This document shows, one piece after another, positions 20,189 through 22,974 of a stretch of 23,746 nt of DNA. This stretch comes from a bacterium. GTDB lineage: Bacteria > DYJV01 > JALVYZ01. A program made the position numbers and the translations under genes. The stretch is taken from assembly GCA_027037705.1 (NCBI GenBank), contig JALVYZ010000340.1:1-23746 (forward strand), read 5' to 3'. Under the pieces are notes generated by a model, which worked only from the letters and a program-made list of their open reading frames with translations, made no database searches and was not told where the DNA came from. How positions within the stretch are numbered: position 1 is the stretch's first letter; each line of letters begins with the position of its first letter.

Positions 20189-20255
20189 AGGAGCCAAGTA
20201 CCTGAAATTTTATGTGCTCGGGTAGTAAGGAGTGTGTAATAATTAATAAATGAAC

Positions 20256-20370
20256 ATGCGTAGAAGCGTAAATGCGAAGATGCGTAAAAATGACACAATA
20301 CATCATCCACACATTATTGCATGTACGCATTTACACATTTACGCATCTACGCATTAACGCATCTACGCAT
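20256..20370. repeat. Long imperfect inverted repeat built of TACGCAT-type units
   Basis: The left arm (20256-20292) and right arm (20334-20370) are each 37 bases and pair at 32 of 37 positions, with a 41-base loop. Both are built of degenerate units around ACGCAT spaced 7-10 bases apart; the right side has further units extending to about 20321. The 204-base gap (20189-20392) holds no gene. It lies between fabH and the HIT gene, ending just before the HIT binding site. It could act as a terminator/attenuator or be a DNA-level structure; there is no T-tract directly after the stem. Confidence 0.85.
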
Positions 20371-20392
20371 AAACTCAAAGAGGAGGTGTAAA

Positions 20393-20738: not shown

Positions 20739-22028
20739 ATGAAAGATTTGAAAGAAAATTATAGAAAAATTATGGATGACCATTTCCCAGATAAAATTGA
20801 AATTAAATATGGAAATACAATATTGATTTATAGAAAAAGAACATGGAAAATTTTTGATGAATCAAAAGGAATTTATGTAGAAAAAGGCTTGAGATATGGA
20901 GAAAATCCTGGTCAGGAAGCTGCATTATATGAACTTATAAATGGGAATCTTGTACTTGGGGATTGCAGATTTATTGAACCAGGTAATGGACTTGTTAGTT
21001 CTTTATCAGAAGAAAATTTCATTCAATTTGGGAAACATCCTGGAAAAATTAATTTAACAGATATAGACAATGGTTTAAATATAATAAAATATTTTGATAA
21101 ACCATGTGCTGTTATTTTAAAACACAATAATCCCTGTGGTGTGGCTGTTTCAGATTCAATAAATGATGCTTATGAAAAAGCTTTTTTTGCAGATAGAATA
21201 GCTGCTTTTGGAGGATGTGCAGTATTAAATAGGAAAGTAGATAAAGAACTGGCTGAATTTATTTCAAAGTATTATATTGAAGTTTTAGTTGCTCCAGAAT
21301 ATAGTGGAGATAGTATTGAAATATTAAAAAAGAGAAAAAATTTAAGAGTTGTTAAAATAGAAAAATTGTATGACCTAAAAAAATATAGATACTTTCGTTT
21401 TGTAGATTTTAAATCTTTAATTGATGGTGGATTAATTTTACAACAATCTCCATTAAATAAAATTGAAAAAAAAGAAGATTTTAAATTGGCAGAAGCAGAA
21501 TATAAAGGTAAAATATATAAAATAGAAAGAGAACCAACTGAAAAAGAATATGAAGATATGCTCTTTGGATGGTTTGTTGAACAAGGAGTAACATCTAATT
21601 CAATTTTATATGTAAAAGATGGAGTAACAGTTGGAATTGGGACGGGAGAACAGGATAGAGTTGGTGTTGCTGAAATCGCAGCATATAAAGCTTATACAAA
21701 ATATGCTGATAGATTATGCTTTGAAAAATATGGAATTTCTTATAAAGAGCTTGAACTTGAAATAAAAAGAGGAAAAAGAGAAGAGAAGTTAAAAATAGAA
21801 ATAGATGAACAAGTTAAAGCAGAAAAAGGGAATTTAATTGGTTCAACAATGATTTCAGATGCTTTTTTCCCATTTAGAGATGGAGTTGATGTTGGAATTT
21901 CTCATGGAGTGACTGCTATTGTACAACCTGGTGGTTCTGAAAGAGATTATGAATCAATAATTGCTTGTAATGAAGCCAATCCTAAAGTTACAATGGTTTT
22001 TACTGGACAGAGAGCGTTTAAGCATTGA
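20739..22028 (+). CDS. Stand-alone AICAR formyltransferase (PurH AICARFT domain without IMP cyclohydrolase)
   Basis: 429 residues from ATG 20739 (binding site AAAGGTGAG overlapping the HIT stop; an in-frame upstream start at 20700 would lie inside the HIT gene). Signatures of the AICAR transformylase half of PurH are present: LRYGENPGQEAAL, the catalytic KHNNPCG (Lys128-His129), FADRIAAFGG, and DAFFPFRDGVD near the C-terminus with GITAIVQPGG-like GVTAIVQPGGS. The N-terminal MGS-like IMP cyclohydrolase domain of normal PurH (about 200 residues) is absent and no candidate is nearby. It would make FAICAR from AICAR and 10-formyl-THF in purine synthesis. Stand-alone forms are known; the cyclohydrolase must be elsewhere. 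Confidence 0.88.
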   Translation: MKDLKENYRKIMDDHFPDKIEIKYGNTILIYRKRTWKIFDESKGIYVEKGLRYGENPGQEAALYELINGNLVLGDCRFIEPGNGLVSSLSEENFIQFGKHPGKINLTDIDNGLNIIKYFDKPCAVILKHNNPCGVAVSDSINDAYEKAFFADRIAAFGGCAVLNRKVDKELAEFISKYYIEVLVAPEYSGDSIEILKKRKNLRVVKIEKLYDLKKYRYFRFVDFKSLIDGGLILQQSPLNKIEKKEDFKLAEAEYKGKIYKIEREPTEKEYEDMLFGWFVEQGVTSNSILYVKDGVTVGIGTGEQDRVGVAEIAAYKAYTKYADRLCFEKYGISYKELELEIKRGKREEKLKIEIDEQVKAEKGNLIGSTMISDAFFPFRDGVDVGISHGVTAIVQPGGSERDYESIIACNEANPKVTMVFTGQRAFKH

Positions 22029-22060
22029 TATAGTGCGAAGTCTGGAGTAGGGAGTAAATA

Positions 22061-22275
22061 GAGGTTAGTTAAGGTTAGTTAGAGTTAGTTGAGGTTAGTG
22101 AATAGGGATTAATTAGGAATTGGCTAATGAGGAGTGGTATGGTAGGTAATTGTGATATTTTTACTATACTACTAAACTACTATACCAATAACAACAAATA
22201 ACTATGAATTACAATTAATTACTACAAATAACAAAAAACTAACACCATCACCAACACTAACACTAACACTAACAC
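22061..22275. repeat. Large degenerate inverted array of GTTAGT/ACTAAC units
   Basis: In the 268-base gap between the AICAR formyltransferase and ubiE, four 10-base tandem units (22061-22100, core GGTTAGTT) face several ACTAAC units of 6-base period (about 22239-22275). Inner segments also pair: TGGTATGGTAG (22135-22145) with CTACTATACCA (22177-22187), 10 of 11. The left half, 22061-22160, has one C in 100 bases; the right half to 22274 has one G. The whole folds as one long imperfect hairpin centred near 22160. No gene is visible in it. Confidence 0.85.
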
Positions 22276-22296
22276 ATATTTATAGGTTAAATATTA

Positions 22297-22974
22297 ATGG
22301 TTGATGAAAAATCAAAAAAAATTCAGGAGATGTTTTCTGAGATTTCGGATAAATATGATTTTTTGAATCATTTTTTAAGTTTTGGTCAAGATATTTATTG
22401 GAGAAAAAAAGTTGCAAATATAATTAAAAATATTCCAAATAATGATAAAGTTATTGATGTCGCTTGTGGTACTGGAGATTTAGCAATTGAGATAAATAAA
22501 AAAATAAATAAAAATATAACAGGAATTGATTTTTGTTATGAAATGTTAAAAATTGCTAAAAAAAAAACAAAAGAACTAACTTTTATAAATGGTGATGCAA
22601 CAAATTTACCATTAAAGGATAATTCTTTTGATATTTTAACAATAGCATTTGGTATCAGAAATATTCCTGAAAGAAAAAAAGCATTAAAAGAGTTTTATAG
22701 AGTATTAAAAAAAAAAGGATATTTAATTATTCTTGAATTTTCAATTCCAGATAATTTTTTATTCAGATTTTACTTTGAAAAAGTTTTACCATTTTTAGGT
22801 GGAATATTTTCAAAAAAAGAAGCTTATAAATATCTTCCAGATTCTGTTAAAAAATTTCCATCTGTAAGTAATTTTATAAAAGAAATAAATGAAATAGGTT
22901 TTTCAAGAATTGAAATTTTTTCTCTTTCTTTGGGAACTGTAAAAATTTATAAATGTGAAAAAGGGGCGGTGTAA
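22297..22974 (+). CDS. ubiE: Demethylmenaquinone/ubiquinone C-methyltransferase
   Basis: 225 residues of a class I SAM methyltransferase in the UbiE/MenG family. Signature MFSEISDKYDFLNHFLSFG opens the protein; SAM motif I is VACGTGDLA (55-63), followed by FDILTIAFGIRNIPERKKAL and LEFSIP. It methylates demethylmenaquinol in the last step of menaquinone synthesis; with no ubiquinone genes in view I cannot exclude ubiquinone. It begins after the inverted array with only a weak binding site, and its last bases form the left arm of the flagellin terminator. Gene could equally be named menG. Confidence 0.92.
   Translation: MVDEKSKKIQEMFSEISDKYDFLNHFLSFGQDIYWRKKVANIIKNIPNNDKVIDVACGTGDLAIEINKKINKNITGIDFCYEMLKIAKKKTKELTFINGDATNLPLKDNSFDILTIAFGIRNIPERKKALKEFYRVLKKKGYLIILEFSIPDNFLFRFYFEKVLPFLGGIFSKKEAYKYLPDSVKKFPSVSNFIKEINEIGFSRIEIFSLSLGTVKIYKCEKGAV

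Follow-up and report, generated by a model that had tools for sequence, protein, structure and literature searches.

A strand-polarised mosaic of short tandem repeats between a purH-like and an ubiE-like gene

The window analysed in this work, a stretch of 23,746 nucleotides, corresponds to contig C340 of a bacterial draft genome of 2.05 Mb (28% GC, 93% complete), for whose phylum one other genome, the relative G001, was available for comparison. At positions 22029-22296 of the window, the gap separating a purH-like gene from an ubiE-like gene, both on the plus strand, is occupied by an array of short repeats (the target array). The purH-like protein is 70% identical to its G001 orthologue. 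The features of this region, and a further array upstream, are the following:

20252..20370, + strand: inverted module built from one word (ATGCGTAAATGCG ... CGCATTTACGCAT) in the gap between the fabH-like and HIT genes (TRF; fold)
20739..22028, + strand: purH-like upstream gene, AICARFT/IMPCHase family (Pfam PF01808, 215.7 bits)
22039..22055, + strand: S word (AGTCTGGAGTAGGGAGT), post-stop, C-poor (sequence; word family)
22062..22099, + strand: V array, a GGTTAGTTGA-type 10-nt tandem (GGTTAGTT), C-less (TRF; about 20 further gaps)
22100..22156, + strand: remainder of the C-less left half, including the 5' arm of the inner stem at 22133-22150 (composition; fold)
22157..22182, + strand: start of the G-less right half, with the 3' arm of the inner stem at 22157-22173 (fold; TRF row at 22162-22182)
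22183..22237, + strand: n array, AATAACAACAAATAAC-type, a pre-start word (TRF; word family)
22238..22275, + strand: d element (ACTAACACCATCACCAACACTAAC...), a pre-start word (TRF; genome matches)
22297..22974, + strand: ubiE/COQ5-like methyltransferase, downstream gene (Pfam PF01209, 195.5 bits)

The initial annotation had pictured positions 22061-22275 as a half almost devoid of C facing a half almost devoid of G, and base counts bore this out, with a single C in the left half (22061-22160: A29 C1 G34 T36) and a single G in the right half (22161-22275: A59 C29 G1 T26). The 10-nt tandem and the ACTAAC units that it had read in these halves were also recovered by TRF, the former at 22062-22099 (consensus AGGTTAGTTA, 3.8 copies) and the latter as a 6-nt array at 22238-22275; an additional 10/20-nt AATAAC array was located at 22183-22244, in the right half. 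Strand polarity was scored as G minus C in the left 100 nt plus C minus G in the right 100 nt over 425 kb of the source genome, a sample that was partly picked for word matches and on which the genome statistics given here rest; a composition test on sampled contigs was run without those under 3 kb, which are masked as N. The target reached a polarity score of 55, the maximum of 41,574 scored windows, so that no other 200 bp of the 425 kb sampled are as strand-polarised; the maximum score in G001 was 40.

A genome-wide search for further arrays, with their positions read relative to gene ends as the initial annotation had proposed, yielded many of them, with words zoned by gene end. The arrays belong to one genome-wide set, sampled in about 50 gaps and built from roughly eleven short words with periods of 6, 7, 8 and 10:

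K, GGTAGAAGG: post-stop, C-less
S, GGAGTCTGGAGTGCGGAGTC: post-stop, C-less
V, GGTTAGTTGA: post-stop, C-less
I, GGCTATAGG: almost always post-stop
E, GTGAATAGTGAA: almost always post-stop
M, AATGAAAAATGAA: almost always post-stop
d, ACTAACACCAACAC: pre-start, G-less
n, AATAACAACAAATAAC: pre-start, G-less
w, AATTCAAAATT: always pre-start
c, CGCATTTACGCAT: mixed position, mainly pre-start
h, CACGAATCACGA: mixed position, mainly pre-start

The tandem pattern of V (GGTTAGTT...GGTTAGT) gave 29 matches in about 20 gaps versus one for the reversed control, and the pattern of the d element (ACTAACACYAWCACYAAC) gave 17 matches in the genome versus none for its control. In many operons the d element lay about 20-30 nt before the start codon with nearly constant edges and length, and the distinct units of the composite GGAGTCTGGAGTGCGGAGTCGGGAGT stayed in order across different operons. 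Since the excess in TRF tandem-array density over G001 was modest (10.7 vs 6.7 per 100 kb), what sets this genome apart is its words and the order in which they come, not tandem density. Recurrent 11-mers were also tried genome-wide as a word finder and were dropped, as AT-rich coding words dominated them. The V word was not found in other genomes of the family or of the phylum, the latter being represented by one relative, and no matches came from collections of phages and plasmids. The S word was present in 12 of the 385 genomes searched, all 12 unrelated to the source. In these distant lineages (L218-L237) the word (GGAGTCNGGAGTNNGGAGT) was sometimes arranged as inverted pairs (GACTCC, at L222 and L227) or apparently located within ORFs (L221 and L228).

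The near-constant position of the d element, together with the precedent of oriented pre-start heptamers (PMC4679880), would suit a scenario in which an RNA- or DNA-binding regulator recognises the words, pre-start and post-stop alike, as oriented targets, a role that has been proposed for the TAACTGA repeats of Beggiatoaceae. We give this a small chance, given that many unrelated words fill the same place, that many genes are devoid of any array, and that the orthologous operons of G001 carry none.

The placement of the arrays relative to genes followed a consistent polarity. Among 43 co-directional arrays read in gene orientation, 34 ran from G to C and none from C to G, the rest consisting of G-type words only (six) or C-type words only (three). 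The ratios of G-type to C-type occurrences in gene orientation were 15:1 for K, 21:2 for S, 20:2 for V and 7:0 for both E and M, and 0:20 for d, 0:13 for n and 0:4 for w. A word-free test based on TRF blocks and GC skew also favoured the G-to-C order in co-directional gaps (27 vs 2), and the same order was found in nine of ten multi-block gaps of the contigs that had not been picked for matches, an unbiased subset. Steps between neighbouring blocks ran from C to G in only three cases vs 37, and these sit in gaps with two serial modules. Two full G-to-C modules in series were observed at L159:5323-5655, L161:2509-2796, L164:1641-2091 and L171:6135-6491, an arrangement that loss of a gene in between or insertion of a second module could produce.

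The arrays usually extended from a few nt past the stop codon to about 20-30 nt short of the start codon. Co-directional gene pairs harboured 41 of 47 arrays; of the 152 gaps of at least 60 nt, 39 lay between divergent or convergent genes. No polarity was detected in array-free gaps of the source genome or in G001 gaps, and its absence from the array-free gaps indicates that polarity resides in the words and their placement. At two loci (L110:801 and L164:1641), post-stop words extend into the final codons of the gene upstream, resulting in word-encoded C-terminal tails.

The strand leading outward from the gene is C-poor on both sides of nearly every array, whatever the gene orientation. This pattern would be expected if breaks in the gaps had been extended by C-less repeats on both 3' ends and then rejoined, in a manner comparable to head-to-head telomere fusion. 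However, such a process would be blind to gene orientation, and yet the words are specific for gene ends (V 20:2, d 0:20); unit order is, moreover, common to different loci, and no reverse transcriptase was found. Altogether, an origin through break healing appears very improbable.

With regard to folding, the two halves had been described as aligning along most of their length, with inner segments that pair too. The inner pairing was confirmed, although the stem of lowest energy joins 22133-22150 with 22157-22173 and does not involve CTACTATACCA at 22177-22187, and the extent of the alignment was overstated. An advantage over shuffled sequences was seen for the exact interval 22061-22275 (z −2.25, 3 of 200 shuffles being as good) and it shrank when 20-nt flanks were included (z −1.27, 18 of 200). 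Mean fold z values did not differ among array gaps (−1.35), array-free gaps (−1.08) and G001 gaps (−1.24). In 22 mixed modules, including the target, own halves gave −569.6 kcal/mol and swapped halves −555.4 ± 18.5 kcal/mol, with no sign of specific pairing, whereas in nine same-word modules own halves paired better than swapped ones (−221.1 vs −177.7 ± 17.9 kcal/mol). The module at 20252-20370, folded over 20236-20374, showed a z of −8.57; it is a very strong predicted hairpin and the window's second array of this system. Several other same-word modules had z values of −3.5 to −5.4. A REP-like hairpin (GAGCACCT...AGGTGCTC) was also observed at four places in the genome, two of them adjoining arrays (L098:392-414, L108:18389-18413, L170:4547-4570, and a degenerate copy near positions 20194-20225 of the window).

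The strong folds of the same-word modules, the preference of nine of them for their own halves and the z of the trimmed target could be taken to indicate that, in the mRNA, the two halves form a stem that serves as a terminator, an attenuator or a processing or stability element. Most arrays, however, combine different words without specific pairing between their halves, and array gaps fold like ordinary gaps of this genome and of G001, so a hairpin is not common to the class. Furthermore, no intrinsic terminator (a G+C-rich stem-loop followed by a T run) was found within 21900-22420, in agreement with the earlier statement that the array is not a simple terminator, and Rfam covariance models over 22029-22296 gave no match up to E = 1. 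A role as intercistronic RNA hairpin is, in our opinion, unlikely. Judged by the comparison with shuffled sequence on which the initial annotation had made the structure depend, pairing is not the rule for the class, although the predicted folds point to real pairing in a minority of same-word modules. Quadruplex-like DNA, another structure put forward for this region, is unlikely as well because the left half of the target has only two GGG runs; the V, E, K and M words have none.

The initial annotation was right to see more than a plain duplication in the array and to invoke some repeat-generating or copying process. Its more specific proposal was a template-switch inverted duplication, with the right half as a degenerate reverse-complement copy of the left. 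This suits same-word modules (C/c at 20252-20370; S/s, K/k and I/i elsewhere), and template switching is plausible for the nine of them. It does not fit the target, whose right half uses other words: the words are specific for gene ends, and the 22 mixed modules, with unrelated words on each side, show no specific pairing. As an explanation of the arrays, inverted duplication is therefore improbable.

Orthologous gaps of G001 were mostly short and without arrays, in keeping with insertion specific to the lineage of the source genome, as judged from a handful of gaps in one relative, with empty sites at about 45-85% protein identity. Gaps between adjacent genes were at most 15, 27, 45, 78 and 107 nt in G001 vs 199, 86, 123, 250 and 256 nt in the source genome. 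In the clearest case, a gene pair about 80% identical, a 15-nt gap including the stop codon (TAAAAGGGGTGGAAA) in G001 corresponds to a 199-nt array here. For the target gap, G001 offers no clean empty site because it contains an additional 301-aa ORF (L022:1961-2866) between purH and ubiE, where the source genome has the array.

On the basis of these data, we interpret the target as a polarised repeat mosaic between cistrons, an extreme case, with many words, of the short tandem repeats that occupy intergenic regions in Xanthomonas, Nostoc and others, and we assign a probability of about one half to the whole explanation, including copying and an orientation filter. According to this explanation, the arrays would spread by the copying of short composite segments between gaps, either by ectopic recombination or by template switching between like tracts, and would change in length through slippage. 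Copying is favoured over independent slippage because single-unit expansion would not keep the composite unit order. Copies would persist only between the stop codon and the ribosome-binding site, and only in the tolerated orientation: the G-less pre-start orientation would keep out competing start codons and Shine-Dalgarno mimics, and the C-less post-stop orientation would produce no C-rich Rho-loading RNA. The long hairpin would be incidental in most arrays and real only in same-word modules.

Pre-start halves contained 9.3 start codons per kb, vs 103 if reversed, and rut-like (C-over-G) windows amounted to 0% of the post-stop halves, vs 90% if reversed; a Rho gene is present in the source genome. 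In view of these reversal effects and the presence of Rho, an mRNA-level filter on orientation is plausible for the pre-start half; for the post-stop half it is possible, but the case is weaker. There, in the first half of the array, Rho loading is a weak argument because the C-rich second half, with 46% rut-like windows, is untranslated too. In addition, post-stop halves contain 21 Shine-Dalgarno-plus-start matches per kb, which would not have survived a filter directed only at spurious starts, and the lack of polarity in array-free gaps, where no general selective filter on spacers is visible, also counts against filtering. Copying, in turn, has against it that no Y1 transposase (PF01797) and no reverse transcriptase were found in the 93% complete genome, nor any copying intermediate.

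A more far-reaching proposal would be a process that inserts C-less words outward from gene edges into operon gaps, with one set of words for the 3' ends of genes and another for the 5' ends. It would also lie behind the G-outward arrays of unrelated phyla, polarity being the mark of this mechanism and not of G-quadruplexes. We consider this a long shot.

Oriented G-rich intergenic repeats of bacteria have so far been discussed chiefly as quadruplexes or binding sites. Polarity is the surprising aspect of the present set: explanations based on quadruplexes and pairing are insufficient, because it holds for words without quadruplex capacity or pairing partners. That many words obey one orientation rule, and that gene ends and gene starts each have their own vocabulary, points to a shared cause that acts on how the words are oriented with respect to genes; this cause may be mutational or exerted at the mRNA level, and it is testable. 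The feature is a multi-word, strictly zoned form of intergenic tandem repeats that were already known, and the multi-word zoning is the new part.

REPs are conserved palindromes of 20-40 nt tied to Y1 (RAYT) transposases. Like REP and BIME elements, the arrays described here are small dispersed repeats in the gene gaps of operons; unlike them, they are tandem and polarised and have no conserved palindrome, and PF01797 is absent. The TAACTGA direct repeats of Beggiatoaceae, cyanobacteria and Bacteroidetes are closer, as oriented short tandems located directly upstream of start codons at many loci of one genome, and they vary between related strains (PMC4679880). That system differs in consisting of a single heptamer, with no matching post-stop word set and no G-to-C module.

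The comparison with Xanthomonas (GGGAATC) and Nostoc PCC 7120 (GGGGA(C/T)T) rests on PMC4692102, which describes G-rich heptamer tandem repeats dispersed in intergenic regions. Convergent inverted pairs of these repeats are common in Xanthomonas (70 and 75 cases), and the Nostoc repeats favour the non-coding strand (PMC4692102). Cyanobacteria lack Rho (PMC13289151), and this, taken with the Nostoc bias, would be in line with a contribution of Rho to the post-stop rule, although it is only suggestive. As in these genomes, short tandem units occupy many intergenic loci of one genome, with the G-rich strand near the ORF being the coding strand downstream and the non-coding strand upstream (34 vs 0 and 27 vs 2 here). 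Unlike the single heptamer families of Xanthomonas and Nostoc, with their capacity for G-quadruplexes (four GGG runs per array), the present set comprises about eleven words with periods of 6-10, mostly without GGG, with zones set by gene end and several words joined in a single gap.
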